Source: Agelas oroides (lineage: Eukaryota > Porifera > Demospongiae > Agelasida > Agelasidae). Taken from it: a stretch of 64,000 bases of DNA. Each line of letters opens with the position of its first letter. Position 1 is the first letter of the stretch. Below are positions 10,900 to 64,000 of this stretch, one piece after another. Both the position numbers and the translations under genes were made by a program. The notes below the pieces were generated by a model, which was not told the origin of the DNA, made no database searches, and was given only the letters and a program-made list of their open reading frames with translations. The stretch covers positions 8,347,127 to 8,411,126 of the forward strand of contig OX422185.1 of the NCBI GenBank assembly GCA_949130485.1, in the 5' to 3' direction.

Positions 10900-10900
10900 C

Positions 10901-12058: not shown

Positions 12059-15000
12059 ACCATGTCTCTACTACATTCTACCATGGCTCCACGTGACTCT
12101 ACTTGACTCTACTACATTCTACGATAGCTCTGCTTGACTCTGTATACCTCTAATACATTCTACTATGGCTCTGCTTGACTCTACTTGACTGTAGTACACT
12201 CTACCTTGGCTGTACTACATTCTACCATCGCTCTACTTGACTCTACTTGATTCTACATCACTCTACTACATTGTACCATGGCTCTACTTGACTCTACTTG
12301 ACTCTACTACACTCTATCATGGCTCTACTTGGCTCTACTTGAGTGCACTACACTCTACCTTGGCTCTACTTGGCTCTACTTGACTCTACTACACTCTACC
12401 ATGGCTAAACTTGGCTCTACTTGACTCTACTACACTCTACCATGGCTCTACTTCATTGTACCATAGCTCTACTTGACACTACATGATTCTACTAAAAGTT
12501 ACCGTGGCTCTTCTTGACTCTACTTAACTCTCCTACACTCTACCATTGCTCTACTTGGCTCTACTACACTCTACCATGGCTCTATTTGGCTCTACTTGAC
12601 TCTACTACACTCTACCATGGCTCTACTTGTCTCTACTTGACTGTACTACACTCTACCATGTCTCTACTACATTCTACCATGGCTCCACGTGACTCTACTT
12701 GACTCTACTACATTCTACGATAGCTCTACTTGACTCTGTATACCTCTAATACATTCTACTATAGCTCTGCTTGACTCTACTTGACTGTAGTACACTCTAC
12801 CTTGGCTATACTACATTCTACCATGGCTCCACTTGACTCTACTTGACTCTACTGCATTCTACCATGGCTCTACGTGGCTCTAGTATATTCTACCATGGCT
12901 TTACTTGGCTCTACATGACTCTACTACATGCTACCGTGGCTCTACGTGATTCTACCTGACTCTCCTACACTCTACCATGGCTCTACTTCATAGTCCCTTG
13001 TCTCTACTTGACACTACATGACTCTACTACATTCTACCATGGCTGTACTTGCCTCTACTTGACACTACTACAATCTACCATGATTCTACTTGGCTCTACG
13101 TGACTCTACCACACTCTACTGTGGCTCTATGTGGCTGTCTCTGACTCTACTACATTCTACCATGGCTCTACCCCATAGTACCATGTCACTACTTGACACT
13201 ACATGACTCTACTACATTCTACCATGGCTCTACTTGACTCTACTTGAGTCCACTACACTCTAACATGACTCTACTTGGCTCTACGTGACTGTACCACACT
13301 CTACCGTGGCTCTACTTGGCTCTACTTGACTCTACTACACTCTACCATGACTCTACCTTGCTCTACTACATTCTACCATGGCTCTACTTGACTCTACATG
13401 ACTCTAATACATTCAACCATGGCTCTACTCGACTCTACGTGACTCTACTACACTCTACCATGGTTCTACTTGACTCTACTTGAGTCCACTACACTCTACC
13501 TTGGCTCTACTTGGCTCTACTTGACTCTACTACACTCTACCATGGCTCTACTCCATTGTATATCATGGCTCTACTTCACACTACATGACTATACTACATT
13601 CTACCATGGCTCTACTTGACTCTACTACACTCTACCATGGTTCTACTTGACTCTACTTGAGTCCACTACACTCTACTATGGCTCTACTTGACTCTACTTG
13701 ACTCGACTACACTCTATCATGGCTCTACTTGAGTCCATTACACTCTACCTTGCCTCAACTTGGCTCTACTTGACTCTACTACACTCTACCATGGCTCTAC
13801 TCCATTCTACCATGGCTCTACTTGACACTACATGATTCTACAAAATGCTACCATGGCTCTTCTTGACACTACTTGACTCTCCTACACTCTACCATTGCTC
13901 TACTTGGCTCTACTGCACTCTACCATGGCTCTACGTGGCTCTACTTGACTCTACTACACTGTACTATGTCTCTACTACATTCTACCATGGCTCCACGTGA
14001 CTCTACGTGACTCTACTACATTCTCCCATAGCTCTACTTGACTCTGTATGCCTTCACTACATTCTACCATGGCTCTTCTTGACTCTACTTGACTCTCCTA
14101 AACTCTCCCATTGCTCTACTTGGCTGTACTTGGCTCTACTACACACTAACATGGCTCTACCTGGCTCTACGTGACTCTACTACACTCTACAATGGCTCTA
14201 CTTGACACTACTACACTCTACCATGGCTCTCCTCCATTGTATATCATGGCTCTACTTCACACTACATGACTCTACTACATTCTACCATGGCTCTACTTGA
14301 ATCTACTACACTCTACCATGGCTCAACGTTGGTCTACTTGACTCTACTACACTCTACCATGGCTCTACTCCATTGTACCATGGCTCTACTTGACACTACA
14401 TGATTCTACTGAATTTCACCATGGCTCTTCTTGACTCTACTTGACTCTCCTACACTCTACCATTGCTCTACCTGGCTCTACTACACTATACCATGGCTCT
14501 ACTTGGCTCTACTTGACTCTACTACATTCTACCATGGCACTACTTGGCTCTACTTGACACTAGTACACTCTACCATGTCTCTACTACATTCCACCATGGC
14601 TCCACGTCACTCTACGTGACTCTACTACATTCTACCAAAGCTCTACTTGACTCTGTATGCCTCTCCGACATTCTACCATAGCTCTTCGTGACGCTACTTG
14701 GCTCTACTTGACTCTACTTGACTGTACTACACTCTACCTTGGCTCTACTACATTCAACCATGGCTCCACGTGACTCTACTCGACTCTACTGCATTCTACC
14801 ATGGCTCTACCTTGCTCTACTACATTCTACCATGGCTCTACTTGGTACTACATGACTCTCCTACATGCTATCGTGGTTCTACTTCGCTCTACATGACTCC
14901 ACGACACTCTTCCATGGCTCTACTCCATTGTACCATGCCTGTACTTGACACTACATGACTCTCCTACATTCTAACACGGCTCTAATTGACTCTACTACAC

Positions 15001-18000
15001 TCTACGATGGCTCAACTTGGCTCTACTTGACTCTACTACACTATACCATTGCTAGTCCTGGCTCTACTTGTCTACTACATTCTACCTCGGCGCTACAACA
15101 TCGTACCATGGATCCACGTGACTCTACTTGACTCTACTACACTCTACCATGTCTCTACCTGCCTCTACTACATTCTACCATGGCTCTACTTTGCTCTACT
15201 TGAGTCCACTACACTCTACCTTGGATCTACTTGACTCTACTTGACTCTACTAAACTGTACAATGGCTCTACTTGGCTCTATGTGACTCTACTACAGTCTA
15301 CCATGGCTCTACTTGGATCTACTTCACTCTACTACATTCTACTATAGTTCTACTTGTCTCTATATGACTCTACTGCATTCAACCATAGCTCTACTTGACT
15401 CTGTATGCCTCTACTACATTCTACCATGGTTCTTCTTGACTCTACTTGACTCTCCTACACTCTCCCATTGCTTTACGTGACTCTACTTGACTCTACTACA
15501 CTCTACCATGGCTCTACTTGACGCTACTTCAGTCTACTACATTCTGCCATGGCTCTACTTGACTCTACCTGACTGTACTACACTCAACCTTGGCTCTACT
15601 ACATTCTACCATGGCTCCACGTGACTCTACTTGACTCTACTGCATTCTACCATGGCTCTACCTGGCTCTACTACATTCTACCATGGCTCTACTTGGTAAC
15701 ACATCACTCTACAACATGCTACCATGGCTCTACTTGGCTGTACATGACTCTACTACACACTACCATGGCTCTACTAAATTGTACCATGTCTGTACTACAC
15801 TATACCATTGCTAGTCCTGGCTCTACTTGTCTACTACACTCTACCTTCGCTCTACTACATCCTACCATGGATCCACGTGACTCTACTTGACTCTACTACA
15901 CTCTACCATGGCTCTACCTGGCTCTACTACATTGTACCATGGCTCTACTTTGCTCTACTTGAGTCCACTACACTCTACCTTGGCTGTACTTGGCTCTACT
16001 TGACTCTACTAAACTCTACCATAGCTCTACTTGGCTCTATGTGACTCTACTACAGTCTACCATGGCTCTTCTTGACTCTCCTTGACTATACTACACTCTA
16101 CCTTGGCTCTACTACATTCTACCATGGCTCCACGTGACTCTACTTGACTCTACTGCATTCTACCATGGCTCTACCTGGCTCTACTTCATTCTACCATGGC
16201 TCTACTTGGCTCTACATGACACTACTACATGCTACCGTGGCTCTACATGGCTCTACCTGACTCTACTACACTCTACCATAGCTGTACCCATAGTACCATG
16301 TCTCCACTTGACACTACATGACTCTACTACACTCTACCATGGTTCTACTTGCCTCTACTTGAATCTACTACACTCTAACATGACTCTACTTGACTATACG
16401 TGACTCTACCACACTCTACCGTGGCTCTACTTGGCTCTACTTGACTCTACTACACTCTACCATGGCTCTACTCCATTGTACCATGGCTCTACTTGACTCT
16501 ACTAGACTCTACGATGGCTCTACTTGCCTCTACTTGACTCTACTACACTATATCATTGCTAGACCTGGCTCTACTTCACTCTCCTACACTCTACCATGGC
16601 TCTACCTTCCTCTACTACATTCTACCATGGCTCTACTTGACTCTACATGACTCTAATACATTCAACCATGGCTCTATACGTGACTCTACTTGACTCTACT
16701 ACACTCTACCATGGCTCTACTTGTCTCAACTTGAGTCCACTACACTGTACCTTGGCTCTACTTGGCTCTACTTGACTCTACTACACTCTACCATGGCTCT
16801 ACTTCACACTACATGACTCTACTACATTCTACCATGGCTCTACTTGACTCTACTACACTATACCATTGCTAGTCCTGGCTCTACTTGTCTACTACACTCT
16901 ACCTTGGCGATACTACATCCTACCATGGATCCACGTGACTCTCCTTGACTCTACTACACTCTACCATGTCTCTACCTGGCTCTACCACATTCTACCATGG
17001 CTCTACTTTGCTCTAGTTCAGTCCACTACACTCTACCTTGGCTCTACTTGGCTCTACTTGACTCTACTACACTATATCATTGCTAGACCTGGCTCTACTT
17101 GTCTCTACAACACTCTACCTTGGCTCTACTACATCCTACCATGGATCCACGTGACTCTACTTGACTCTCCTACACTCTACCATGGCTCTACCTTGCTCTA
17201 CTACATTCTACCACGGCTCTACTTGATTCTACATGACTCTACTACATTCTACCATGGCTCTACTTGACTCTGCTTGACTCTACTACACTCTACCATGGCT
17301 CTACTTGGCTCTACTTGAGTCCACTACACTCTACCTTGGCTCTACTTGGCTCTACTTGACTCTACTACACTCTACCATGGCTCTACTTCACACTACATGA
17401 CTCTACTACATTCTACCATGGCTCTACTTGACTCTACTACACACTACCATGGCTCAACTTGGCTCTACTTGACTCAACTACATTCTACCATGGCTCTACT
17501 TGACTCTACTTGACTCTACTACACACTACCATGACTCTACTTGTCTCTACGTGATTCTACAGCACTCTACCGTGGCTCTACTTGGCTCTACTTGACTCTG
17601 CTACTCTGCCATGGCTCCACGTGACTCTACGTGACTCTACAGCATTCTACCATTGCTCTACTTGACTCTGTATGGCTCTACTACATTGTACAATCGCTCT
17701 ACTTGACTCTACATGACTCTACTACATTCTGCCATGGCTCTACTTGACTCAACTTGACTGTACTACACTCTACCTTGGCTCTACTACATTCTAACATGGC
17801 TCCACGTGATTCTACTTGACTCTACTACACACTACCATGGCTCTACCTTGCTCTACTACATTCTACCATGGCTCTACTTGACTCTTCATGACTCTACTAC
17901 ATTCTACCATGGCTCTAGTTGACTCTACTTGACTAGACTACACTCTATCATGGCTCTACTTGGCTCTACTTGGGTCCACTATACTCTACCTCAGCTCTAC

Positions 18001-18596
18001 TTGCTTCTACTTGACTCTACTACACTCTATCATGGCACTACTCCATTGTATATCATGGCTCTACTTCACACTACATGACTCTACTACATTTTACCATGGC
18101 TCTACTTGACTCTACCATGGCTCTACTTGGCTCTACTTGACTCTACTACACTCTACCATGGCTCTACTTGGCTCTATGTGACTCTACTACAGTCTACCAT
18201 GGCTCTACTTGGCTCTACTTGACTCTATTACACTCTACCTTGGCTCTACTACATTCTACCATGGCTCCATGTGACTCTACTTGAATCTGCTGCATTTTAC
18301 AATGGCTCTACCTGGCTCTACTACATTCTACCATGGCTCTACTTGGCTCTACATCACTCTACTACACTCTACCATGGCTCTACTCCATTGTACCATGGCT
18401 CTACTTGACACTACATGACTCTACTACATTCTACCATGGCTCTACTTGACTCTACTACACTCTACGATGGCTCTACTTGGCTCTACTTTACTCTACTACA
18501 CTATATCATTGTACACCTGGCTCTACTTGTCTCTACTACTCTCCACCTTGGCTCTACTACATCCTACCATGGATCCACGTGACTCTACTTGACTCT

Positions 18597-21500
18597 CCTA
18601 CACTCTACCATGGCTCTACTTGACTCTACATGACTCTACTATATTCTACCATGGCTCTACTTGGCTCTACTTGAGTCCACTTCACTCTACCTTGGCTCTA
18701 CTTGGCTCTACTTGACTCTACTACACTCTACCATGGCTCTACTCCATTGTATATCATGGCTCTACTTCACACTACATGACTCTACTACATTCTACCATGG
18801 CTCTACTTGACTCTACTTGACTCTACTACACTCTACCATGGCTCTACTTGGTTCTACTTGAGTCCACTACACCCTACCTTGGCTCTACTTGGCTCTACGT
18901 GACTCTACTACACTCTACCATGTCTCTACTACATTCTACTATGGCTCCACGTGACTTTACGTGACTCTACTGCATTCTACCATAGCTCTACTTGACTCTG
19001 TATGCCTCTACTACATTCTACCATGGCTCTACTTGACTCTACTTGACCCTACTACATTCTGCCATGGCTCTACTTGACTCTACTTGACTGTACTACACTC
19101 TACCTTTGCTCTACTACATTCTAACATGGCTCCACGTGACTCTACTTGACTCTACTACACTCTATCATGGATCTACCTTGCTCTACTACATTCTACCATG
19201 GCTCTACTTAACTCTACATGACTCTACTACATTGTACCATGGCTCTACTTGACTCTACTTGACTCTACTACACTCTATCATGGCTCTACTTGGTTCTACC
19301 TGAGTCCACTACACTCTATCTTGGCTCTACTTGGCTCTACTTGACTTTACTACACTCTACCATGGCTCTACTCCATTGTATATCATGGCTCTACTTCACA
19401 CTACATGAGTCTACTACATTCTACCATGGCTCTACTTGACTCTACTACACTCTACCATGGCTCTACTCCATTGTACCATGGCTCTACTTGACACTACATG
19501 ATCCTACTAAATGTTACCATGGCTCTTCTTGACTCTACTTGACTCTCCTACACTCTACCATTGCTCTACTTGGCTCTACTGCACTCTAGCATGGCTCTAT
19601 TTCGCTCTACTTGACTCTACTACACTCTACCATGGCTCTACTTGTCTCTACTTGACTGTACTACACTCTACCATGTCTCTACTACATTCTACCATGGCTC
19701 CACGTGACTCTACTTGACTCTACTACATTCTACGATAGCTCTACTTGACTCTGTATACCTCTAGTACATTCTACTATGGCTCTGCTTGACTCTACTTGAC
19801 TGTAGTACACTCTACCTTGGCTGTACTACATTCTACCATGGCTCAACTTGACTCTACTTGACTCTACTACATTCTACCATGGCTCTACGTGGCTCTAGTA
19901 TATTCAACCATGGCTCTACTTGGCTCTACGTGACTCTATTGCACTCTACCAGGTCTCTACTTGGCTCTACTTGAGTCCACTACACCCTACCTTGGCTCTA
20001 CTTGGCTCTACGTGACTCTACTACCCTCTATCATGGCTCTACTTGGCTCTACTTGACTCTACTACACTCTACCATGTCTCTAATACATTCTACCATGGCT
20101 CCACGTGACTCTACGTGACTCTACTTCATTCTACCATAGCTCTACTGGACTCTGTATGCCTCTACTACATTCTACCATGGCTCTACTTGACTCTACTTGA
20201 TTCTACATCACTCTAATACATTGTACCATGGCTCTACTTGACTCTACTTGACTCTACTACACTCTACCTTGGCTCTACTTGGCTCTACGTGACTCTACTA
20301 CCCTCTATCATGGCTCTACTTGGCTCTACTTGACTCTACTACACTCTACCATGTCTCTAATACATTCTACCATGGCTCCACGTGACTCTACGTGACTCTA
20401 CTTCATTCTACCATAGCTCTACTGGACTCTGTATGCCTCTACTACATTCTACCATGGCTCTACTTGACTCTACTTGATTCTACATCACTCTAATACATTG
20501 TACCATGGCTCTACTTGACTCTACTTGACTCTACTACACTCTATCATGGCTCTACTTGGCTCTACTTGAGTCCACTACACTCTACCTTGGCTCTACTTGG
20601 CTCTACTTGACTCTACTACACTCTACCATGGCTCAACTTGGCTCTACTTGACTCTACTAAACTCTACCATAGCTCTAGTTGGCTCTATGTGACTCTACTA
20701 CAGTCTACCATGGCTCTACTTGGATCTACTTGACTTTACTACATTCTACCATAGTTCTACTTGTCTCTATATGACTCTACTGCATTCTACCATAGCTCTA
20801 CTTGACTCTGTATGCCTCTACTACATTCCACCATGGCTCTTCTTGACTCTACTTGACTCTACTACACTCTACCTTGGCTCTACTACATTCTACCATGGCT
20901 GCACGTGACTCTACTTGACTCTACTGCATTCTACCATGGCTCTACTTGGCTCTACTTCATTCTACCATGGCTCTACTTCGCTCTACATGACTCTACTACA
21001 TGCTACCGTGCCTCTACATGGCTCTACCTGACTCTACTACACTCTACCATGGCTATACCCATAGTACCATGTCTCCACTTGACACTACATGACTCTACTA
21101 CACTCTACCATGGCTCTACTTGCCTCTACTTGAGTCTACTACACTCTACTTGGCTATACGTGACTCTACCACACTCTACCGTGGCTCTACTTGGCTCTAC
21201 TTGACTCTACTATACTCTACCATGGCTCTACTCCATTGTACCATGGCTCTACTTGACTCTACTAGACTCTACGATGGCTCTACTTGGCTCTACTTGACTG
21301 TACTACACTATATCATTGCTAGACCTGGCTCTACTTGACTCTCCTACACTCTACCATGGCTCTACCTTGCTCTACTACATTCTACCATGGCTCTACTTGA
21401 CTCTACATGACTCTAATACATTCAACCATGGCTCTACTTGACTCTACTTGACTCTATTACACTCTACCATGGCTCTACTTATCTCAACTTGAGTCCACTA

Positions 21501-21704
21501 CACTCTACCTTGGCTCTACTTGACTCTACTTGACTCTACTACACTCTACCATCGCTCTACTTCACACTACATGACTCTACTACATTCTACCATGGCTCTA
21601 CTTGACTCTACTACACTATACCATTGCTAGTCCTGGCTCTACTTGTCTACTACACTCTACCTTGGCGCTACTACATCCTACCATGGATCCACGTGACTCT
21701 CCTT
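18597..21704 (+). repeat. Higher-order repeat, 3114-3116-bp offset (first copy)
   Basis: This segment recurs from about 21711 at an offset of 3114 bp, then 3116 bp after a 2-bp insertion near 22083. From about 20540 the offset falls to 2839 bp because this copy carries an extra 277-bp tandem duplication. The two copies differ at scattered positions, so the event is older than the 3371-bp duplication that follows. Confidence 0.85.
19987..20540 (+). repeat. 277-bp tandem duplication inside a higher-order repeat
   Basis: About 19987-20263 is repeated at about 20264-20540, sharing rare variants (ACTACCCTCTATCATGG, TCTAATACATTG). The neighbouring higher-order copies (23.1-23.4 and 26.5-26.8 kb) have it once. 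The offset arithmetic agrees: 3116 minus 2839 is 277. The length equals six 41-bp blocks plus one 31-bp block. Confidence 0.85.
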
Positions 21705-22350
21705 GACTCTCCTACACTCTACCATGGCTCTACTTGACTCTACATGACTCTACTATATTCTACCATGGCTATACTTGGCTCTACTTGAGTCCACTTCACT
21801 CTACCTTGGCTCTACTTGGCTCTACTTGACTCTACTACACTCTACCATGGCTCTACTCCATTGTATATCATGGCTCTACTTCACACTACATGACTCTACT
21901 ACATTCTACCATGGCTCTACTTGACTCTACTTGACTCTACTACACTCTACCATGGCTCTACTTGGTTCTACTTGAGTCCACTACACCCTACCTTGGCTCT
22001 ACTTGGCTCTACGTGACTCTACTACACTCTACCATGTCTCTACTACATTCTACTATGGCTCCACGTGACTTTACGTGACTCTATACTGCATTCTACCATA
22101 GCTCTACTTGACTCTGTATGCCTCTACTACATTCTACCATGGCTCTACTTGACTCTACTTGACCCTACTACATTCTGCCATGGCTCTACTTGACTCTACT
22201 TGACTGTACTACACTCTACCTTTGCTCTACTACATTCTAACATGGCTCCACGTGACTCTACTTGACTCTACTACACTCTATCATGGATCTACCTTGCTCT
22301 ACTACATTCTACCATGGCTCTACTTGACTCTACATGACTCTACTACATTG

Positions 22351-25300
22351 TACCATGGCTCTACTTGACTCTACTTGACTCTACTACACTCTATCATGGC
22401 TCTACTTGGTTCTACCTGAGTCCACTACACTCTATCTTGGCTCTACTTGGCTCTACTTGACTTTACTACACTCTACCATGGCTCTACTCCATTGTATATC
22501 ATGGCTCTACTTCACACTACATGAGTCTACTACATTCTTCCATGGCTCTACTTGACTCTACTACACTCTACCATGGCTCTACTCCATTGTACCATGGCTC
22601 TACTTGACACTACATGATCCTACTAAATGTTACCATGGCTCTTCTTGACTCTACTTGACTCTCCTACACTCTACCATTGCTCTACTTGGCTCTACTGCAC
22701 TCTAGCATGGCTCTATTTCGCTCTACTTGACTCTACTACACTCTACCATGGCTCTACTTGTCTCTACTTGACTGTACTACACTCTACCATGTCTCTACTA
22801 CATTCTACCATGGCTCCACGTGACTCTACTTGACTCTACTACATTCTACGATAGCTCTACTTGACTCTGTATACCTCTAATACATTCTACTATGGCTCTG
22901 CTTGACTCTACTTGACTGTAGTACACTCTACCTTGGCTGTACTACATTCTACCATGGCTCAACTTGACTCTACTTGACTCTACTACATTCTACCATGGCT
23001 CTACGTGGCTCTAGTATATACAACCATGGGTCTACTTGGCTCTACTTGACTCTATTGCACTCTACCAGGTCTCTACTTGGCTCTACTTGAGTCCACTACA
23101 CCCTACCTTGGCTCTACTTGGCTCTACGTGACTCTACTACCCTCTATCATGGCTCTACTTGGCTCTACTTGACTCTACTACACTCTACCATGTCTCTAAT
23201 ACATTCTACCATGGCTCCACGTGACTCTACGTGACTCTACTTCATTCTACCATAGCTCTACTGGACTCTGTATGCCTCTACTACATTCTACCATGGCTCT
23301 ACTTGACTCTACTTGATTCTACATCACTCTACTACATTGTACCATGGCTCTACTTGACTCTACTTGACTCTACTACACTCTATCATGGTTCTACTTGGCT
23401 CTACTTGAGTCCACTACACTCTACCTTGGCTCTACTTGGCTCTACTTGACTCTACTACACTCTACCATGGCTCAAGTTGGCTCTACTTGACTCTACTAAA
23501 CTCTACCATAGCTCTACTTGGCTCTATGTGACTCTACTACAGTCTACCATGGCTCTACTTGGATCTACTTGACTTTACTACATTCTACCATAGTTCTACT
23601 TGTCTCTATATGACTCTACTGCATTCTACCATAGCTCTACTTGACTCTGTATGCCTCTACTACATTCCACCATGGCTCTTCTTGACTCTACTTGACTATA
23701 CTACACTCTACCTTGGCTCTACTACATTCTACCATGGCTGCACGTGACTCTACTTGACTCTATTGCATTCTACCATGGCTCTACTTGGCTCTACTTCATT
23801 CTACCATGGCTCTACTTCGCTCTACATGACTCTACTACATGCTACCGTGCCTCTACATGGCTCTACCTGACTCTACTACACTCTACCATGGCTATACCCA
23901 TAGTACCATGTCTCCACTTGACACTACATGACTCTACTACACTCTACCATGGCTCTACTTGCCTCTACTTGAGTCTACTACACTCTACTTGGCTATACAT
24001 GACTCTACCACACTCTACCGTGGCTCTACTTGGCTCTACTTGACTCTACTATACTCTACCATGGCTCTACTCCATTGTACCATGGCTCTACTTGACTCTA
24101 CTAGACTCTACGATGGCTCTACTTGGCTCTACTTGACTGTACTACACTATATCATTGCTAGACCTGGCTCTACTTGACTCTCCTACACTCTACCATGGCT
24201 CTACCTTGCTCTACTACATTCTACCATGGCTCTACTTGACTCTACATGACTCTAATACATTCAACCATGGCTCTACTTGACTCTACTTGACTCTATTACA
24301 CTCTACCATGGCTCTACTTATCTCAACTTGAGTCCACTACACTCTACCTTGGCTCTACTTGACTCTACTTGACTCTACTACACTCCACCATGGCTCTACT
24401 TCACACTACATGACTCTACTACATTCTACCATGGCTCTACTTGACTCTACTACACTATACCATTGCTAGTCCTGGCTCTACTTGTCTACTACACTCTACC
24501 TTGGCGCTACTACATCCTACCATGGATCCACGTGACTCTCCTTGACTCTACTACACTCTACCATGTCTCTACCTGGCTCTACTACATTCTACCATGGCTC
24601 TACTTTGCTCTAGTTCAGTCCACTGCACTCTACCTTGGCTCTACTTGGCTCTACTTGACTCTACTACACTATATCATTGCTAGACCTGGGTCTACTTGTC
24701 TCTACTAAACTCTACCTTGGCTCTACTACATACTCCCATGGATCCACGTGACTCTACTTGACTCTCCTACACTCTACCATGGCTCTACCTTGCTCTACTA
24801 CATTCTACCACGGCTCTACTTGATTCTACATGACTCTACTACATTCTACCATGCCTCTACTTGACTCTGCTTGACTCTACTACACTCTACCATGGCTCTA
24901 CTTGGCTCTACTTGAGTCCACTACACTCTACCTTGGCTCTACTTGGCTCTACTTGACTCTACTACACTCTACCATGGCTCTACTTGGCTCTACTTGAGTC
25001 CACTACACTCTACCTTGGCTCTACTTGGCTCTACTTGACTCTACTACACTCTACCATGGCTCTACTCCATTGTATATCATGGCTCTACTTCACACTACAT
25101 GACTCTACTACATTCTACCATGGCTCTACTTGACTCTACTACACACTACCATGGCTCAACTTGGCTCTACTTGACTCAACTACATTCTACCATGGCTCTA
25201 CTTGACTCTACTTGACTCTACTACACACTACCATGACTCTACTTGTCTCTACGTGATTCTACAGCACTCTACCGTGGCTCTACTTGGCTCTACTTGACTC

Positions 25301-42600: not shown

Positions 42601-42850
42601 TGAGTCTAATACATTCAACCATGGCTGTACTTGACTCTACATGACTCTACTACACTCTACCATGGTTCTACTTGACTCTACTTGAGTCCACTACGCTCTA
42701 CCTTGGCTCTACTTGGCTCTACTTGACTCTACTACACTCTACCATGGCTCTACTCCATTGTACCATGGCTCTACTTGACTCTACTTCACACTACATGACT
42801 ATACTACATTCTACCATGGCTCTACTTGACTCTACATGACTCTACTACAT

Positions 42851-49622: not shown

Positions 49623-52600
49623 TACATTCTACTATGGCTCTACTTGACTCTACTAAACTCTACCATAGCTCTACTTGACTCTACATGACTCTACTACATT
49701 CTACTATGGCTCTACTTGACTCTACTTGACTCGACTACACTCTATCATGGCTCTACTTGAGTCCACTACACTCTACCTTGGCTCAACTTGGCTCTACTTG
49801 ACTCTACTACACTCTACCATGGCTCTACTCCATTGTACCATGGCTCTACTTGACACTACATGATTCTACAAAATGCTACCATGGCTCTTCTTAACTCTAC
49901 TTGACTCTCCTACACTCTACCATTGCTCTACTTGGCTCTACTGCACTCTACCATGGCTCTACGTGACTCTACTTGACTCTACTACACTGTACTATGTCTC
50001 TACTACATTCTACCATGGCTCCACGTGACTCTACGTGACTCTACTACATTCTCCCATAGCTCTACTTGACTCTGTATGCTTCCAATACATTCTACCATGG
50101 CTCTTCTTAAATCTACTTGACTCTCCTACACTCTCCCATTTCTCTACTTGGCTGTACTTGGCTCTACTACACACTAACATGGCTCTACCTGGCTGTACGT
50201 GACTCTACTACACTCTACCATGGCTCTACTTGACTCTACTACACTCTACCATGGCTCTACTCCATTGTAGATCATGGCTCTACTTCACACTACATGACTA
50301 TACTACATTCTACCATGGCTCTACTTGACTCTACATGACTCTACTACATTCTACTATGGCTCTACTTGACTCTACTTGACTCGACTACACTCTATCATGG
50401 CTCTACTTGAGTCCACTACACTCTACCTTGGCTCAACTTGGCTCTACTTGACTCTACTACACTCTACCATGGCTCTACTCCATTGTACCATTGCTCTACT
50501 TGACACTACATGATTCTACAAAATGCTACCATGGCTCTTCTTAACTCTACTTGACTCTCCTACACTCTACCATTGCTCTACTTGGCTCTACTGCACTCTA
50601 CCATGGCTCTACGTGGCTCTACTTGACTCTACTACACTGTACTATGTCTCTACTACATTCTACCATGGCTCCACGTGACTCTACGTGACTCTACTACATT
50701 CTCCCATAGCTCTACTTGACTCTGTATGCTTCCACTACATTCTACCATGGCTCTTCTTAACTCTACTTGACTCTCCTACACTCTCCCATTGCTCTACTTG
50801 GCTGTACTTGGCTCTACTACACACTAACATGGCTCTACCTGGCTGTACGTGACCCTACTACACTCTACCATGGCTCTACTTGACTCTACTACACTCTACC
50901 ATGGCTCTACTCCATTGTATATCATGGCTCTACTTCACACTACATGACTCTACTACATTCTACCATGGCTCTACTTGAATCTACTACACTCTACCATGGC
51001 TCAACGTTGGTCTACTTGACTCTACTACACTCTACCATGGCTCTACTCCATTGTACCATGGCTCTACTTGACACTACATGATTCTACTGAATTCTACCAT
51101 GGCTCTTCTTGACTCTACTTGACTCTCCTACACTCTACCATTGCTCTACTTGGCTCTACTACACTCTACCATGGCTCTACTTGGCTCTACTTGACTCTAC
51201 TACACTCTACCATGGCACTACTTGGCTCTACTTGACACTACTACACTCTACCATGTCTCTACTACATTCTACCATGGCTCCACGTGACTCTACGTGACTC
51301 TACTACATTCTACCAAAGCTCTACTTGACTCTGTATGCCTCTACTACATTCTACCATAGCTCTTCGTGACGCTACTTGACTCTACTACATTCTGCCATGG
51401 CTCTACTTGACTCTACTTGACTGTACTACACTCTACCTTGGCTCTACTACATTCTACCATGGCTCCACGTGACTCTACTCGACTCTACTGCATTCTACCA
51501 TGGCTCTACCTGGCTCTACTACATTCTACCATGGCTCTACTTGGTACTACATGACTCTACTACATGCTATCGTGGTTCTACTTCGCTCCACATGACTCCA
51601 CGACACTCTTCCATGGCTCTACTCCATTGTACCATGGCTGTACTTGACACTACATGACTCTCCTACATTCTAACATGGCTCTACTTGACTCTACTACACT
51701 CTACGATGGCTCAACTTGGCTCTACTTGACTCTACTACACTATACCATTGCTAGTCCTGGCTCTACTTGTCTACTACACTCTACCTTGGCGCTACAACAT
51801 CGTACCATGGATCCACGTGACTCTACTTGACTCTACTGCACTCTACCATGTCTCTACCTGCCTCTACTACATTCTACCATGGCTCTACTTTCCTCTACTT
51901 GAGTCCACTACACTCTACCTTGGCTCTACTTGACTCTACTTGAGTCTACTAAACTGTACCATGGCTCTACTTGGCTCTATGTGACTCTACTACAGTCTAC
52001 CATGGCTCTACTTGGATCTACTTGACTCTACTACATTCTACCATAGTTGTACTTGTCTCTATATGAGTCTACTGCATTCAACCATAGCTCTACTTGACTC
52101 TGTATGCCTCTACTACATTCTACCATGGTTCCTCTTGACTCTACTTGACTCTCCTACACTCTGCCGTTGCTCTACGTGGCTCTACTTGACTCTACTACAC
52201 TCTACCATGGCTCTACTTGAGGCTACTTGAGTCTACTACATTCTGCCATGGCTCTACTTGACTCTACCTGAGTGTACTACACTCTACCTTGGCTCTACTA
52301 CATTCTACCATGGCTCCACGTGACTCTACTTGACTCTACTGCATTCTACCATGGCTCTACCTGGCTCTACTACATTCTACCATGGCTCTACTTGGTAACA
52401 CATCACTCTACTACATGCTACCATGGCTCTACTTGGCTGTACATGACTCTACTACACTCTACCATGGCTCTATTAAATTGTACCATGTCTGTACTACACT
52501 ATACCATTGCTAGTCCTGGCTCTACTTGTCTACTACACTCTAACTTGGCTCTACTACATTCTACCATGGATCCACGTGACTCTACTTGACTCTACTACAG

Positions 52601-55600
52601 TCTACCATGGCTCTACCTGGCTCTACTACATTGTACCATGGCTCTACTTTGCTCTACTTGAGTCCATTACATTCTACCTTGTCTCTACTTGGCTCTACTT
52701 GACTCTACTAAACTCTACCATAGCTCTACTTGGCTCTATGTGACTCTACTACAGTCTACCATGGCTCTACTTGGATCTACTTGACTTTACTACATTCTAC
52801 CATAGTTCTACTTGTCTCTATATGACTCTACTGCATTCTACCATACCTCTACTTGACTCTGTATGCCTCTACTACATTCTACCATGGCTCTTCTTGACTC
52901 TACTTGACTATACTACACTCTACCTTGGCTCTACTACATTCTACCATTGCTCCACGTGACTCTACTTGACTCTACTGCATTCTACCATGGCTCTACCTGG
53001 CTCTACTTCATTCTACCATGGCTCTACTTGGCTCTACAAGACTCTACTACATGCTACCGTGGCTCTACATGGCTCAACCTGACTCTACTACACTCTACCA
53101 TGGCTGTACCCATAGTACCATGTCTCCACTTGACACTACATGACTCTACTACACTCTACCATGGCTCTACTTGCCTCTACTTGAGTCTACTACACTCTAA
53201 CATGACTCTACTTGGCTATACGTGACTCTACCACACTCTACCGTGGCTCTACTTGGCTCTACTTGACTCTACTACACTCTACCATGGCTCTACTCCATTG
53301 TACCATGGCTCTACTTGACTCTACTAGACTCTACGATGGCTCTACTTGGCTCTACTTGACTCTACTACACTATATCATTGCTAGACCTGGCTCTACTTGA
53401 CTCTCCTACACTCTACCATGGCTCTACCTTGCTCTACTACATTCTACCATGGCTCTACTTGACTCTACATGACTCTAATACATTCAACCATGACTCTACT
53501 TGACTCTACTACACTCTACCATGGCTCTACTTGGCTCAACTTGAGTCCACTACACTGTACCTTGGCTCTACTTGGCTCTACTTGACTCTACTACACTCTA
53601 CCATGGCTCTACTTCACACCACATGACTCTACTACATTCTACCATGGCTCTACTTGACTCTACTACACTATACCATTGCTAGTCCTGGCTCTACTTGTCT
53701 ACTACACTCTACCTTGGCGCTACTACATCCTACCATGGATCCACGTGACTCTACTTGACTCTACTACACACTACCATGTTTCTACCTGGCTCTACTACAT
53801 TCTACCATGGCTCTACTTTGCTCTAGTTCAGTCCACTACACTCTACCTTGGCTCTACTTGGCTCTACTTGACTCTACTACACTATATCATTGCTAGACCT
53901 GGCTCTACTTGTCTCTACTACACTCTACCTTGGCTCTACTACATCCTACCATGGATCCACGTGACTCTACTTGACTCTCCTACACTCTACCATGGCTCTA
54001 CCTTGCTCTACTACATTCTACCACGGCTCTACTTGATTCTACATGACTCTACTACATTCTACCATGCCTCTACTTGACTCTGCTTGACTCTACTACACTC
54101 TACCATGGCTCTACTCCATTGTATATCATGGCTCTACTTCACACTACATGACTCTACTACATTCTACCATGGCTCTACTTGATTCTACTACACACTACCA
54201 TGGCTCAACTTGGCTCTACTTGACTCAACTACATTCTACCATGGCTCTACTTGACTCTACTTGATTCTACTACACACTACCATGACTCTACTTGTCTCTA
54301 CGTGATTCTACAGCACTCTACCGTGGCTCTACTTGGCTCTACTTGACTCTGCTACTCTGCCATGGCTCTACGTGACTCTACTGCATTCTACCATTGCTCT
54401 ACTTGACTCTGTATGCCTCTACTACATTGTACCATCGCTCTACTTGACTCTACATGACTCTACTACATTCTGCCATGGCTCTACTTCACTCAACTTGACT
54501 GTACTACACTCTACCTTGGCTCTACTACATTCTAACATGGCTCCACGTGATTCTACTTGACTCTACTACACACTACCATGGCTCTACCATGCTCTACTAC
54601 ATTCTACCATGGCTCTACTTGACTCTACATGACTCTACTACATTCTACCATGGCTCTAGTTGATTCTACTTGACTCGACTACACTCTATCATGGCTCTAC
54701 TCCATTGTACCATGGCTCTACTTGACACTACATGACTCTACTACATTCTACCATGGCTCTACTTGACTCTACTACACTCTACGATGGCTCTACTTGGCTC
54801 TACTTTCCTCTACTACACTATATCATTGTAGACCTGGCTCTACTTGACTCTACTACTCTCCACCTTGGCTCTACTACATCCTACCATGGATCCACGTGAC
54901 TCTACTTGACTCTCCTAAACTCTACCATGGCTCTACCTTGCTTTACTACATTCTACCATGGCTCTACTTGACTCTACATGACTCTACTATATTCTACCAT
55001 GGCTCTACTTGGCTCTACTTGAGTCCACTACACTCTACCTTGGCTCTACTTGGCTCTACTTGACTCTACTACACTCTACCATGGCTCTACTCCATTGTAT
55101 ATCATGGCTCTACTTCACACTACATGACTCTACTACATTCTACCATGACTCTACTTGACTCTACTTGACTCTACTACACTCTACCATGGCTCTACTTGGT
55201 TCTACTTGAGTCCACTACACCATACCTTGGCTCTACTTGGCTCTACGTGACTCTACTACACTCTACCATGTCTCTACTACATTCTACTATGGCTCCACGT
55301 GACTTTACGTGACTCTACTGCATTCTACCATAGCTCTACTTGACTCTGTATGCCTCTACTACATTCTACCATGGCTCTACTTGACTCTACTTGACCCTAC
55401 TACATTCTGCCATGGCTCTACTTGACTCTACTTGACTGTACTACACTCTACCTTTGCTCTACTACATTCTAACATGGCTCCACGTGACTCTACTTGACTC
55501 TACTACACTCTATCATGGCTCTACCTTGCTCTACTACATTCTACCATGGCTCTACTTGACTCTACATGACTCTACTACATTGTACCATGGCTCTACTTGA

Positions 55601-55669
55601 CTCTACTTGACTCTACTACACTCTATCATGGCTCTACTTGGTTCTACCTGAGTCCACTACACTCTATCT

Positions 55670-58135
55670 TGGCTCTACTTGGCTCTATTTGACTTTACTA
55701 CACTCTACCATGGCTCTACTCCATTGTATATCATGGCTCTACTTCACACTACATGAGTGTACTACATTCTACCATGGCTCTACTTGACTCTACTACACTC
55801 TACCATGGCTCTACTCCATTGTACCATAGTTGTACTTGACACTACATGATCCTACTAAATGTTACCATGGCTCTTCTTGACTCTACTTGACTCTCCTACA
55901 CTCTACCATTGCTCTACTTGGCTCTACTGCACTCTAGCATGGCTCTATTTGGTTCTACTTGACTCTACTACACTCTACCATGGCTCTACTTGTCTCTACT
56001 TGACTGTACTACACTCTACCATGTCTCTACTACATTCTACCATGGCTCCACGTGACTCTACTTGACTCTACTACACTCTATCATGGCTCTACTTGGCTCT
56101 ACCTGAGTCCACTACATTCTACCTTGGCTCTACTTGGCTCTACTTGACTATACTACACTCTACCATGGCTCAACTTGGCTCTACTTCATTCTACCATGGC
56201 TCTACTTGGCTCTACATGACACTACTACATGCTTCCGTGGCTCTACATGGCTCTACCTGACTCTACTACACTCTACCATAGCTGTGCCCATAGTACCATG
56301 TCTCCACTTGACACTACATGACTCTACTACACTCTACCATGGTTCTACTTGCCTCTACTTGAATCTACTACACTCTAACATGACTCTACTTGACTATACG
56401 TGACTCTACCACACTCTACCGTGGCTCTACTTGGCTCTACTTGACTCTACTACACTCTACCATGGCTCTACTCCATTGTACCTTGGCTCTACTTGACTCT
56501 ACTAGACTCTACGATGGCTCTACTTGCCTCTACTTGACTCTACTACACTATATCACTGCTAGACCTGGCTCTACTTCACTCTCCTACACTCTACCATGGC
56601 TCTACCTTGCTCTACTACATTCTACCATGGCTCTACTTGACTCTACATGACTCTAATACATTCAACCATGGCTCTACGTGACTCTACTTGACTCTACTAC
56701 ACTCTACCATGGCTCTACTTGTCTCAACTTGAGTCCACTACACTGTACCTTGGCTCTACTTGGCTCTACTTGACTCTACTACACTCTACCATGGCTCTAC
56801 TTCACACTACATGACTCTACTACATTCTACCATGGCTCTACTTGACTCTACTACACTATACCATTGCTAGTCCTGGCTCTACTTGTCTACTACACTCTAC
56901 CTTGGCTCTACTTGGCTCTACTTGACTTTACTACACTCTACCATGGCTCTACTCCATTGTATATCATGGCTCTACTTCACACTACATGAGTGTACTACAT
57001 TCTACCATGGCTCTACTTGACTCTACTACACTCTACCATGGCTCTACTCCATTGTACCATAGTTCTACTTGACACTACATGATCCTACTAAATGTTACCA
57101 TGGCTCTTCTTGACTCTACTTGACTCTCCTACACCCTACCATTGCTCTACTTGGCTCTACTGCACTCTAGCATGGCTCTATTTGGTTCTACTTGACTCTA
57201 CTACACTCTACCATGGCTCTACTTGTCTCTACTTGACTGTACTACACTCTACCATGTCTCTACTACATTCTACCATGGCTCCACGTGACTCTACTTGACT
57301 CTACTACACTCTATCATGGCTCTACTTGGCTCTACCTGAGTACACTACATTCTACCTTGGCTCTACTTGGCTCTACTTAACTCTACTACACTCTACCATG
57401 GCTCAACTTGGCTCTACTTCATTCTACCATGGCTCTACTTGGCTCTACATGACACTACTACATGCTACCGTGGCTCTACATGGCTCTACCTGACTCTACT
57501 ACACTCTACCATAGCTGTACCCATAGTACCATGTCTCCACTTGACACTACATGACTCTACTACACTCTACCATGGTTCTACTTGCCTCTACTTGAATCTA
57601 CTACACTCTAACATGACTCTACTTGACTATACGTGACTCTACCACACTCTACCGTGGCTCTACTTGGCTCTACTTGACTCTACTACACTCTACCATGGCT
57701 CTACTCCATTGTACCATGGCTCTACTTGACTCTACTAGACTCTACGATGGCTCTACTTGCCTCTACTTGACTCTACTACACTATATCATTGCTAGACCTG
57801 GCTCTACTTCACTCTCCTACACTCTACCATGGCTCTACCTTGCTCTACTACATTCTACCATGGCTCTACTTGACTCTACATGACTCTAATACATTCAACC
57901 ATGACTCTACGTGACTCTACTTGACTCTACTACACTCTACCATGGCTCTACTTGTCTCAACTTGAGTCCACTACACTGTACCTTGGCTCTACTTGGCTCT
58001 ACTTGACTCTACTACACTCTACCATGGCTCTACTTCACACTACATGACTCTACTACATTCTACCATGGCTCTACTTGACTCTACTACACTATACCATTGC
58101 TAGTCCTGGCTCTACTTGTCTACTACACTCTACCT
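55670..58135 (+). repeat. 1233-bp tandem duplication
   Basis: Copies at about 55670-56902 and 56903-58135, offset 1233 bp over the stretches compared. Shared variants include CTAAATGTTACC, CATGGCTCTATTTGG and TTGAATCTACTACAC. A few substitutions separate them. Confidence 0.85.
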
Positions 58136-61100
58136 TGGCGCTACTACATCCTACCATGGATCCACGTGACTTTCCTTGACTCTACTACACTCTACCATGT
58201 CTCTACCTGGCTCTACCACATTCTACCATGGCTCTACTTTGCTCTAGTTCAGTCCACTACACTCTACCTTGGCTCTACTTGGCTCTACTTGACTCTACTA
58301 CACTATATCATTGCTAGACCTGGCTCTACTTGTCTCTACTACACTCTACCTTGGCTCTACTACATCCTACCATGGATCCATGTGACTCTACTTGACTCTC
58401 CTACACTCTACCATGGCTCTACCTTGCTGTACTACATTCTACCATGGCTCTACTTGATTTTACACATTCTACCATGCCTCTACTTCACTCTGCTTGACTC
58501 TACTACACTCTACCATGGCTCTACTTGGCTGTACTTGAGTCCACTACACTCTACCTTGGCTCTACTTGGCTCTACTTGACTCTACTACACTCTACCATGG
58601 CTCTACTCCATTGTATATCATGGCTCTACTTCACACTACATGACTCTACTACATTCTACCATGGCTCTACTTGACTCTACTACACACTACTATGGCTCAA
58701 CTTGTCTCTACGTGATTCTACAGCACTCTACCATGCCTCTACTTGGCTCTACTTGACTCTGCTACTCTGCCATGGCTCCACGTGACTCTGTGTGACTCTA
58801 CTGCATTCTATCATTGCTCTACTTGACTCTGTATGCCTCTACTGCATTGTACCATCGCTCTACTTGACTCTACATGACTCTACAACATTCTGCCATGGCT
58901 CTACTTGACTCAACTTGACTGTACTACACTCTACATTGGCTCTACTACATTCTAACATGGCTCCACGTGATTCTACTTGACTCTACTACACACTACCATG
59001 GCTCTACCTTGCTCTACTACATTCTACCATGGCTCTACTTGACTCTACATGACTCTACTACATTCTACCATGGCTCTAGTTGACTCTACTTGACTCGACT
59101 ACACTCTATCTTGGCTCTACTTGGCTCTACTTGAGTCCATTATACTCTACCTTGGCTCTACTTGGCTCTACTTGACTCTACTACACTCTACCATGGCTCT
59201 ACTCCATTGTATATCATGGCTCTACTTCACACTACATGACTCTACTACATTCTACCATGGCTCTACTTGACTCTACTACACACTACCATGGCTCAACTTG
59301 TCTCTACGTGATTCTACAGCACTCTACCATGCCTCTACTTGGCTCTACTTGACTCTGCTACTCTGCCATGGCTCCACGTGACTCTGTGTGACTCTACTGC
59401 ATTCTATCATTGTTCTACTTGACTCTGTATGCCTCTACTGCATTGTACCATCGCTCTACTTGACTCTACATGACTCTACAACATTCTACCTTGGCTCTAC
59501 TTGACTCAACTTGACTGTACTACACTCTACATTGGCTCTACTACATTCTAACATGGCTCCACGTGATTCTACTTGACTCTACTACACACTACCATGGCTC
59601 TACCTTGCTCTACTACATTCTACCATGGCTCTACTTGACTCTACATGACTCTACTACATTCTACCATGGCTCTAGTTGACTCTACTTGACTCGACTACAC
59701 TCTATCATGGCTCTACTTGGCTCTACTTGAGTCCACTATAATCTACCTCGGCTCTCCTTGGCTCTACTTGACTCTACTACACTCTACCATGGCTCTACTC
59801 CATTGTATATCCTGACTCTACTTCACACTACATGACTATGCTACATTCTACCATGGCTCTACTTGACTCTACCATGGCTCTACTTGGCTCTACTTGACTC
59901 TACTACACTCTACCTTGGCTCTACTACATTCTACCATGGCTCCACGTGACTCTACTTGACTCTGCTGCATTCTACCATGGCTCTACCTGGCTCTACTACA
60001 TTCTACCATGGCTCTACTTGGCTCTACATCACTCTACTACACTCTACCATGGCTCTACTCCATTGTACCATGGCTCTACTTGACACTACATGACTCTACT
60101 ACATTCTACCATGGCTCTACTTGACTCTACTACACTCTACGATGGCTCTACTTGGCTCTACTTTACTCTACTACACTATATCATTGTAGACCTGGCTCTA
60201 CTTGTCTCTACTTCTCTCCACCTTGGCTCTACTACATCCTACCATGGATCCACGTGACTCTACTTGACTCTCCTACACTCTACCATGGCTCTACCTTGCT
60301 CTACTACATTCTACCATGGCTCTACTTGACTCTACATGACTCTAATACATTCAACCATGACTCTACGTGACTCTACTTGACTCTACTACACTCTACCATG
60401 GCTCTACTTGTCTCAACTTGAGTCCACTACACTGTACCTTGGCTCTACTTGGCTCTACTTGACTCTACTACACTCTACCATGGCTCTACTTCACACTACA
60501 TGACTCTACTACATTCTACCATGGCTCTACTTGACTCTACTACACTATACCATTGCTAGTCCTGGCTCTACTTGTCTACTACACTCTACCTTGGCGCTAC
60601 TACATCCTACCATGGATCCACGTGACTTTCCTTGACTCTACTACACTCTACCATGTCTCTACCTGGCTCTACCACATTCTACCATGGCTCTACTTTGCTC
60701 TAGTTCAGTCCACTACACTCTACCTTGGCTCTACTTGGCTCTACTTGACTCTACTACACTATATCATTGCTAGACCTGGCTCTACTTGTCTCTACTACAC
60801 TCTACCTTGGCTCTACTACATCCTACCATGGATCCATGTGACTCTACTTGACTCTCCTACACTCTACCATGGCTCTACCTTGCTGTACTACATTCTACCA
60901 TGGCTCTACTTGATTTTACACATTCTACCATGCCTCTACTTCACTCTGCTTGACTCTACTACACTCTACCATGGCTCTACTTGGCTGTACTTGAGTCCAC
61001 TACACTCTACCTTGGCTCTACTTGGCTCTACTTGACTCTACTACACTCTACCATGGCTCTACTCCATTGTATATCATGGCTCTACTTCACACTACATGAC

Positions 61101-62360
61101 TCTACTACATTCTACCATGGCTCTACTTGACTCTACTACACACTACTATGGCTCAACTTGTCTCTACGTGATTCTACAGCACTCTACCATGCCTCTACTT
61201 GGCTCTACTTGACTCTGCTACTCTGCCATGGCTCCACGTGACTCTGTGTGACTCTACTGCATTCTATCATTGCTCTACTTGACTCTGTATGCCTCTACTG
61301 CATTGTACCATCGCTCTACTTGACTCTACATGACTCTACAACATTCTGCCATGGCTCTACTTGACTCTACTACACACTACCATGGCTCAACTTGTCTCTA
61401 CGTGATTCTACAGCACTCTACCATGCCTCTACTTGGCTCTACTTGACTCTGCTACTCTGCCATGGCTCCACGTGACTCTGTGTGACTCTACTGCATTCTA
61501 TCATTGTTCTACTTGACTCTGTATGCCTCTACTGCATTGTACCATCGCTCTACTTGACTCTACATGACTCTACAACATTCTACCTTGGCTCTACTTGACT
61601 CAACTTGACTGTACTACACTCTACATTGGCTCTACTACATTCTAACATGGCTCCACGTGATTCTACTTGACTCTACTACACACTACCATGGCTCTACCTT
61701 GCTCTACTACATTCTACCATGGCTCTACTTGACTCTACATGACTCTACTACATTCTACCATGGCTCTAGTTGACTCTACTTGACTCGACTACACTCTATC
61801 ATGGCTCTACTTGGCTCTACTTGAGTCCACTATAATCTACCTCGGCTCTCCTTGGCTCTACTTGACTCTACTACACTCTACCATGGCTCTACTCCATTGT
61901 ATATCCTGACTCTACTTCACACTACATGACTATGCTACATTCTACCATGGCTCTACTTGACTCTACCATGGCTCTACTTGGCTCTACTTGACTCTACTAC
62001 ACTCTACCTTGGCTCTACTACATTCTACCATGGCTCCACGTGACTCTACTTGACTCTGCTGCATTCTACCATGGCTCTACCTGGCTCTACTACATTCTAC
62101 CATGGCTCTACTTGGCTCTACATCACTCTACTACACTCTACCATGGCTCTACTCCATTGTACCATGGCTCTACTTGACACTACATGACTCTACTACATTC
62201 TACCATGGCTCTACTTGACTCTACTACACTCTACGATGGCTCTACTTGGCTCTACTTTACTCTACTACACTATATCATTGTAGACCTGGCTCTACTTGTC
62301 TCTACTTCTCTCCACCTTGGCTCTACTACATCCTACCATGGATCCACGTGACTCTACTTG
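57811..62360 (+). repeat. 2456/2094-bp tandem duplication with internal deletion
   Basis: Copy one is about 57811-60266 (2456 bp). Copy two is about 60267-62360 (2094 bp). The offset is 2456 bp in the left part and 2094 bp in the right part, so the second copy lacks 362 bp that the first has between about 58.9 and 59.3 kb. Apart from this I saw no differences in the parts compared (for example TTGATTTTACACATTC and GACTCTGTGTGACTC recur in place). Confidence 0.88.
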
Positions 62361-64000
62361 ACTCTCCTACACTCTACCATGGCTCTACCTTGCTTTACTA
62401 CATTCTACCATGGCTCTACTTGACTCTACATGACTCTACTATATTCTACCATGGCTCTACTTGGCTCTACTTGAGTCCACTACACTCTACCTTGGCTCTA
62501 CTTGGCTCTACTTGACTTTACTACACTCTACCATGGCTCTACTCCATTGTATATCATGGTTCTACTTCACACTACATGACTCTACTACATTCTACCAAGG
62601 CTCTACTTGACTCTACTTGACTCTACTGCACTCTACCATGGCTCTACTTGGTTCTACTTGAGTCCACTACACCCTACCTTGGCTCTACTTGGCTCTACAT
62701 GACTCTACTACACTCTACCATATCTCTACTACATTCTACTATGGCTCCACGTGACTTTACGTGACTCTACTGCATTCTACCATAGCTCTACTTGACTCTG
62801 TATGCCTCTACTACATTCTACCATGGTTCTACTTGACTCTACTTGACCCTACTACATTCTGCCATGGCTCTACTTGACTCTACTTGACTGTACTACACAC
62901 TACCATGGCTCTACCTTCCTCTACTACATTCTACTATGGCTCTACTTGACTCTACATGACTCTACTACATTCTACCATGGCTCTAGTTGACTCTACATGA
63001 CTCGACTACACTCTATCATGGCTCTACTTGGCTCTACTTGAGTCCACTATAATCTACCTCGGCTCTACTTGGCTCTACTTGACTCTACTACACTCTACCA
63101 TGGCTCTACTCCATTGTATATCATGGCTCTACTTCACACTACATGACTCTACTACATTCTACCATGGCTCTACTTGACTCTACCATGGCTCTACTTGGCT
63201 CTACTTGACTCTACTACACTCTACCATGGTTCTACTTGGCTCAATGTGACTCTACTACAGTCTACCATGACTCTACTTGGCTCTACTTGACTCTACTACA
63301 CTCTACCTTGGCTCTACTACATTCTACCATGGCTCCATGTGACTCTACTTGACTCTGCTGCATTCTACCATGGCTCTACCTGGCTCTACTACATTCTACC
63401 ATGGCTCTACTTGGCTCTACATCACTCTACTACACTCTACCATGGCTCTACTCCATTGTACCATGGCTCTACTTGACACTACATGACTCTACTACATTCT
63501 ACCATGGCTCTACTTGACTCTACTACACTCTACGATGGCTCTACTTGGCTCTACTTTACTCTACTACACTATATCATTGTAGACCTGGCTCTACTTGTCT
63601 CTACTACTCTCCACCTTGGCTCTACTACATCCTACCATGAATCCACGTGACTCTACTTGACTCTCTTACACTCTACCATGGCTCTACCTTGCTTTACTAC
63701 ATTCTACCATGGCTCTACTTGACTCTACATGACTCTACTATATTCTACCATGGCTCTACTTGGCTCTACTTGAGTCCACTACACTCTACCTTGGCTCTAC
63801 TTGGCTCTACATGACTCTACTACACTCTACCTTGGCTGTACTCCATTGTATATCATGGCTCTACTTCACACTACATGACTCTACTACATTCTACCATGGC
63901 TCTACGTGACTCTACTTGACTCTACTACACTCTACCATGTCTCTACTTGGTTCTGCTTGAGTCCACTACACCCTACCTTGGCTCTACTTGACTCTACGTG

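Follow-up and report, generated by a model that had tools for sequence, protein, structure and literature searches.

The locus described here raises the question of why a satellite whose subunits measure about one turn of the DNA helix should hold its helical phase over tens of kilobases. The window, i.e., the whole stretch of 64,000 nucleotides that was analysed in the sponge Agelas oroides (C3:8347127-8411126), contains a satellite of 10- and 11-bp subunits that occupies 12059..64000 on the + strand and reaches the window end, as found by word counts, Tandem Repeats Finder (TRF), periodogram and subunit parse. The assembly that was searched comprises 259.3 Mb in 141 contigs, of which the large, chromosome-size contigs C1-C23 together make up 256.6 Mb (C24 has only 89 kb). 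The composition of the satellite, its periodicity, its clustering, its long runs on one strand, its kilobase duplications and its few small insertions and deletions (indels) are directly observed. Judging from these sequence features, we propose, with a probability of about 0.6, that it is a short-unit satellite which is clustered on the chromosomes, most likely in a centromeric or pericentromeric position, and whose subunit length would be kept by in-register copying. The helical phase is then better read as a side effect of subunit length and of the in-register copying of kilobase-scale units that would keep it. We discuss this reading together with several rival explanations, which are not mutually exclusive.

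The array is carried on a single strand: the + strand of 12059-64000 holds 2846 copies of CTCTAC, while GTAGAG occurs three times in the entire window and never inside the array, and the GC skew of the array lies between -0.43 and -0.47 (2-kb windows). The G+C content of the flank is 0.42-0.47. TRF reports a row of period 41 on the + strand (12066..63842, consensus CTCTACTACACTCTACCATGGCTCTACTTGACTCTACTTGA, 1251.7 copies, 71% matches), and its rows of period 41, 72, 31 and 103 each span almost the entire array. Rightward of the window the satellite extends for at least 60 kb more, interrupted once by about 1 kb, such that it is arranged head to tail over 52 kb in the window and some 60 kb beyond. 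Each subunit consists of [CT]TCTAC and a tail, the commonest tails being TACA, TTGA and TTGG in 10-mers and CATGG in 11-mers, and CCATGG recurs mostly at spacings of 41, 31, 82, 123, 62 and 21 bp in mixed blocks. A protein-coding reading was rejected, since stop-to-stop frames do recur on the + strand, yet units of 10, 11, 31 and 41 bp shift the frame. These frames of 95-166 aa (window 15573-62515, e.g., LYYTLPWLYYILPW...) are likely a by-product of the repeat.

Subunits were parsed with a flat prior on length, and neighbours were then re-paired if their lengths summed to 20, 21 or 30-32 bp. For the window, the flat-prior parse gave 5043 subunits, among them 3210 10-mers and 1333 11-mers, and after re-pairing 4967 of 5044 (98.5%) measured 10 or 11 bp, these having a mean length of 10.274 bp. 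The same holds for 5625 of 5717 subunits in the 60 kb to the right of the window and for 4856 of 4978 in 60 kb of C2, where part of the remainder are jumps over inserts; these two pieces and the window array are the three long arrays compared throughout. With a second parse, using a prior that favours 10 and 11, odd lengths amounted to 80/5051 (1.58%) in the window, 67/5731 (1.17%) in the right-hand 60 kb and 105/4984 (2.11%) in C2, as well as 81/2758 (2.94%) in cluster samples, i.e., 20 pieces of 1.5 kb from 13 contigs which were placed at probe hits and are biased to typical words. The share of 11-mers is nearly the same everywhere (0.273, 0.273 and 0.257 in the long arrays and 0.267 in the 20 samples). 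The odd lengths in the three long arrays are true length changes, because none of them pair to sums that fit 10 and 11. For the 80 of the window (36 of 13 bp, 29 of 8, 14 of 9 and one of 12) this also disposes of the possibility that 8- and 13-bp subunits are mis-parsed neighbours. Both the 13-mers and the 8-mers of the window are recurrent, off-length units having been copied along.

A periodicity of TA steps at about 10.3 bp, as claimed by the first-pass annotation, was confirmed by a periodogram peak at 10.27 bp (height 60.9, mean of 2-kb windows); on a coarser grid the array reached 46.9, whereas the flank 1-12000 gave 1.64 and none of 30 mononucleotide shuffles exceeded 1.34. The proposed pattern of 10- and 11-bp subunits in blocks was likewise recovered, with 11-mers mostly every four subunits (890 gaps), followed by three (199) and two (182). 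Since every third or fourth subunit is an 11-mer, the mean is 10.27 bp per subunit and TA hence falls on one face of the helix. That the extra base always sits in CCATGG was too strongly put, as 772 of the 1333 11-mers end exactly in CATGG and 1236 do so within one mismatch. The placement of thousands of TA steps on one helical face is right for most of them only: when stretches of 147 bp were analysed at 10.2 bp, TA steps no more than a quarter turn away from the local mode made up 89%, 88% and 84% in the three long arrays (65-66% after mononucleotide shuffling), and 1009 TA-TA pairs 3 bp apart are found among the 5957 TA steps of the window. Shuffling lowers the TA coherence R from 0.59-0.67 in the long arrays to about 0.25. 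Over 15 subunits at 10.27 bp, the phase coherence of the window is 0.951, compared to a mean of 0.872 and a maximum of 0.883 in 200 order shuffles; the three long arrays give 0.951, 0.945 and 0.888, where the highest values among 200 shuffles each were 0.883, 0.868 and 0.838. The excess over shuffled order stems from the single 11-mer per block, and the period of about 10 bp is coherent over the length of a nucleosome. The inference that phase is preserved thus stands as far as the sharp peak, the coherence above order shuffles and the reduced number of small indels per substitution are concerned.

The pitch of nucleosomal DNA is about 10.2 bp, close to the 10.27 bp of the array. This fits an explanation that we regard as unlikely, namely selection for rotational positioning, in which phased TA steps would ease bending around nucleosomes (possibly those containing CENP-A) and arrays losing phase would be selected against. 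The TA coherence, an order of 11-mers more regular than shuffled and the depletion of small indels all agree with it, and a similar proposal is in print for the 5- and 10-bp centromeric satellites of Drosophila (PMC5844345, in the sections available). Other dinucleotides do not point the same way. TG/CA gives a peak of 64.0 vs. 60.9 for TA and is as periodic as TA, which any repeat of 10-11 bp would be expected to show. The strongest period of weak-weak (WW) steps is 3.42 bp, the third harmonic, and that of strong-strong (SS) steps 5.13 bp, the second harmonic, which we take to come from tails like TTGA and TACA, whose weak steps are offset by roughly one third of a helical turn relative to the core TA. 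WW and SS differ in phase by about 134 degrees rather than 180. A strongly periodic WW (AA/TT) signal opposed in phase by SS was not found. Intrinsic bending by A-tracts was rejected, these being almost absent (19 AAAA/TTTT in 52 kb). We further permuted the columns of the subunits 400 times, keeping lengths, order and composition, for the 10- and 11-bp subunits of the flat-prior parse (4543/5043 in the window, 4668/4971 in C2), with the extra base of 11-mers put back at one position drawn at random. The observed TA amplitude was reached by fractions of 0.150 (window) and 0.115 (C2) of the permutations, those of WW by 0.843 and 0.850, of SS by 0.917 and 0.910 and of WW-SS by 0.882 and 0.885. 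With 84-92% of column-permuted repeats reaching the latter three, this word carries a weaker rotational signal than most repeats with identical bases and lengths. Selection for phase was therefore set aside as unproven, given that WW and SS fall below most column permutations and that a half-turn variant has spread in C2 and a 33-bp form in C1 (see below). The suggestion that rotational setting of nucleosomes is the purpose of the array, or that its phase is selected, hence finds no support in TG/CA, WW/SS, A-tracts or the spread of 16-mers. It is also rather improbable, in our view, that a sponge (peri)centromeric satellite holds phase by selection such that drift is corrected by an 11-mer after every third or fourth decamer and one face of hundreds of kilobases can be read by nucleosomes or by a one-faced protein, through TA and TG steps and not A-tracts.

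The relation between copies points to in-register copying instead. When 500-bp chunks were aligned to the copy sharing most 20-mers, 146 of 222 C3 chunks had a copy only 0.05-3% diverged, whereas the best short shift, 41 bp, gives an identity of only 0.688 over 40 kb; kilobase copies are thus more alike than neighbouring units. Copies less than 10% diverged occur at many distances, mostly about 1-24 kb, as in higher-order repeats. The best shifts in C3 are 41, 82, 31, 72 and 113 bp, and a unit of nucleosome length was dismissed, since shifts of 144 and 154 bp rank only sixth and ninth. Indels were counted in downstream copies less than 10% diverged: 121 close C3 pairs showed 1140 substitutions, 20 indels of 1-9 bp and 66 of at least 10 bp, the commonest size being 10 bp, and 46 close C2 pairs showed 723 substitutions and 43 indels of 1-9 bp. 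As a yardstick we used a dispersed repeat of about 243 bp, SINE/MITE-like by inferred class (short interspersed element/miniature inverted-repeat transposable element), which lies at 2788..3030 of the window (no strand assigned). A first look at the genome yielded 657 candidates, and the 39 copies scored besides that of the window are 87-92% identical. Comparison of 28 copies with their consensus gave 306 substitutions; of the 51 indels, 35 lay outside homopolymer context. These copies were the window's own and 27 others taken from the 40 candidates, out of 657, that were scored, so that the family may be imperfectly represented.

Per substitution, small indels are about 2-9 times rarer in the array than in this dispersed element, with Fisher odds ratios of 0.11 (C3) and 0.36 (C2), though p-values are overstated because the pairs share ancestry. 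One could argue that no constraint is needed here, in that few homopolymers would leave few slippage indels and the period would be inherited from a founding decamer. Indeed, the 52-kb array holds just 23 homopolymer runs of at least 4, compared to 7 in the yardstick consensus of about 243 bp. The depletion nevertheless persists when yardstick indels in homopolymer context are removed (odds ratios 0.15 in C3 and 0.52 in C2), and a minor array on C1, built of the same words, carries more odd lengths, which together make this explanation doubtful. When copies were not restricted to downstream ones, the more diverged pairs showed fewer substitutions per small indel (86, then 33 and 27 in C3; 24-27, then 11.6, 8.6 and 4.0 in C2), alignment being less sure at higher divergence. 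From these ratios the length discipline is real, but not uniform.

Length variants that break the phase have themselves been amplified. In the 60 kb of C2 we find 48 subunits of 16 bp, mainly CTCTACCATGGCATGG (16) and CTCTACCAAGGCATGG (15), across which the median phase shift is 177 degrees, with shifts of more than 120 degrees in 41 cases; 35 of them are flanked on both sides by five normal subunits, so the phase is not restored nearby. On C1, at 29.61 Mb, a 33-bp repeat (10+10+13) is amplified in a small array, which accounts for 17 of the 18 exact genome-wide matches of one 22-mer and in which TA coherence is lost at 10.2 bp (0.62 vs. 0.65 shuffled; 0.73 at 10.5). Helical phase is therefore not required for amplification. 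Phase-breaking units spread like other copies, as do the 16-mers of C2, the 13- and 8-mers of the window and the 13-mers at locus L021, and this spread would reflect in-register copying and not selection on phase, although we say so without certainty. Under in-register copying, pairing, unequal exchange and duplication would all occur in register and thereby retain subunit length; whole-subunit gains and losses would spread, most off-register changes would be lost and a few off-register units would be copied along. Histone octamers may exploit the resulting phase without its having been selected.

The 20-mer CTCTACTTGACTCTACTACA occurs 13109 times in forward and 7410 times in reverse orientation in the genome, and its exact matches numbered zero in prokaryote genome contigs and zero in viral contigs. 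Its density (429 in 112 kb of C3, 92 in 60 kb of C2) extrapolates to 5.4 or 13.4 Mb of satellite. Clusters, defined as at least three hits with gaps below 1 Mb, were mapped by searches with rare variants, four of which gave full lists: 175 hits on 18 of the 23 large contigs, 165 of them in 17 clusters spanning 4.52 of 259.3 Mb. Among the matches listed in further searches C5 and C10 were added and some other clusters became longer, so that at least 20 of the 23 large contigs are hit. At least 24 clusters were tabulated, with a total of 7.05 Mb that is not all satellite; at least 22 span at least 30 kb, on at least 17 contigs. All 24 are internal, with centres at relative positions 0.18-0.78 along the contig, and the main clusters run far on one strand, with strand flips in C3, C8, C9, C14, C16 and C19. 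Outliers among the matches listed include C3 1.18-1.27 Mb (two hits), C11 4.03 Mb (one), C2 0.43 Mb (one) and the small C1 arrays. Since it forms a few large internal blocks on most chromosomes, the satellite may mark centromeres. An assembly artefact, by which the array was collapsed or polished to a regular length, is highly improbable: long arrays do assemble poorly and strand flips occur in some clusters, but the contigs are of chromosome scale with telomere repeats at 11 of 20 starts, two of the three C21-C23 starts and 3 of 10 ends, many substitutions and varied distances separate the copies, and subunit lengths are alike in 20 separate samples.

Several observations weigh against a centromeric satellite maintained by in-register copying. 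One block per chromosome is not universal, because C3, C6, C14, C16 and C19 carry two clusters about 2.7-3.5 Mb apart and the single cluster of C13 is spread over 0.7 Mb, while among the matches listed C1 has only small arrays, the hits on C15 and C20 all fall within 1 kb, and no hit lies on C4, C17 or C22 (these lists being samples). The half-turn 16-mers make up only about 1% of C2 subunits, and the 13-bp CATATGG form has just one of its 18 exact matches in a large cluster. Nor are all minor arrays out of phase, since one of them (L015), with 14.3% odd lengths, still has TA on one face (0.82 at 10.2 and 0.90 at 10.5). With the core about equally diverged, odd lengths amount to 69/1700 (4.06%) in the minor array of C1 at 26.35-26.39 Mb vs. 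1.58% in the window, which filtering of large arrays would predict; the cluster samples (2.94%) and the small arrays L016 (3/100) and L022 (1/43), however, lie in between. Finally, there are 57 (C3) and 17 (C2) substitutions per small indel, compared to 6.0 in the yardstick and 8.7 outside homopolymers, a depletion that selection on length could also produce.

A further, quite unlikely alternative, drawn by analogy, is that a putative protein reading [CT]TCTAC or CCATGG binds cooperatively on one face and thereby keeps the spacing near one turn. Prod and its 10-bp satellite in Drosophila would be the model (PMC5844345, in the portion available). The spacing of about one turn, with one 11-mer per three to four subunits, would suit such a protein, as would the six-base core, which differs from consensus by 7.0-7.3% per base in the long arrays, whereas the commonest base of the tail columns reaches 55-81% (10-mers of the window). 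Core conservation may, on the other hand, reflect a parse that is anchored on the core, and half-turn and 13-bp variants are tolerated.

The unit of rice CentO is about as long as a nucleosome, compared to strongest shifts of 41, 82, 31 and 72 bp in the sponge array, and the word of human satellites 2 and 3 differs from the sponge word. Phasing of the Drosophila centromeric satellites was reportedly proposed by Talbert and colleagues. Most satellite units are either of nucleosomal length or of 5-10 bp (PMC8122249, as far as the excerpt goes). According to the accessible parts of PMC5844345, Prod binds a 10-bp satellite in Drosophila, and the 5- and 10-bp satellites of D. melanogaster (Prodsat and kin) resemble the sponge array in a unit of about one helical turn and in being centromeric, where the sponge array lies in candidate centromeric blocks. 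The same parts describe a 10-bp AA periodicity and binding of cenH3, whereas the sponge array is nearly devoid of A/T tracts and alternates between 10 and 11 bp. CentO is a centromeric satellite with rotationally phased cenH3 nucleosomes (as cited in the available text of PMC5844345). Human satellites 2 and 3 are likewise short-word repeats in pericentromeric blocks, and the excerpt of PMC8122249 makes no mention of 10/11-bp alternation or helical coherence in them. The idea put forward in the first-pass annotation is already known in kind, because rotational phasing has been proposed for the 10-bp periodic centromeric satellites of Drosophila (PMC5844345, same portion); what is new here is the repeat itself and its clustered distribution. 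A described centromeric satellite of sponges was not found in the open-licence literature searched. As sponges are an early animal branch, a candidate centromere repeat would allow direct tests of sponge centromeres, and the co-occurrence of in-phase arrays and amplified phase-breaking variants in one genome offers a natural experiment on helical phase in short-unit satellites.

To the left of the array, 1..12058 of the window is a non-satellite island (no strand assigned) inside the C3 cluster of 8.17-8.81 Mb; further left, C3:8342127-8347126 is not satellite and C3:8332001-8337000 is satellite again. In the latter piece the satellite strand alternates about every 0.5-1 kb in stacked inverted segments, unlike the array of the window. 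The island contains an open frame for a sulfotransferase on the - strand (5052..6173; Pfam Sulfotransfer_1, PF00685, E 1.1e-28) and, also on the - strand, pieces of a retroelement in several frames (8293..10417), LINE-like (long interspersed element) by inferred class, with RVT_1 (PF00078, E 1.8e-30) in 8917-9588; three further minus-strand frames tested in this region had no Pfam match. Positions 1-16000 gave no Rfam match at gathering score in a search for structured RNA. A minisatellite of 46-bp units (10.9 copies, 92% matches) lies at 3636-4138.

Across the genome, the paired clusters of C3, C6, C14, C16 and C19 look as if they bracketed a domain or marked an inversion; those of C14, at 2.75-3.19 Mb (-) and 5.82-6.01 Mb (mostly +), and of C16, at 1.65-2.02 Mb (-) and 4.31-4.80 Mb (mostly +), are mostly opposite in orientation. 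A large inverted arrangement is also seen at 25.26 Mb of C1 (L016:3361-4550), where the left part is mostly + and the right part -. At 32.557 Mb of the same contig (L022:2850-3420), a small array begins right after an apparent coding sequence, judged by eye (FIDDLHNTKVKG), and is perhaps an array at a gene.

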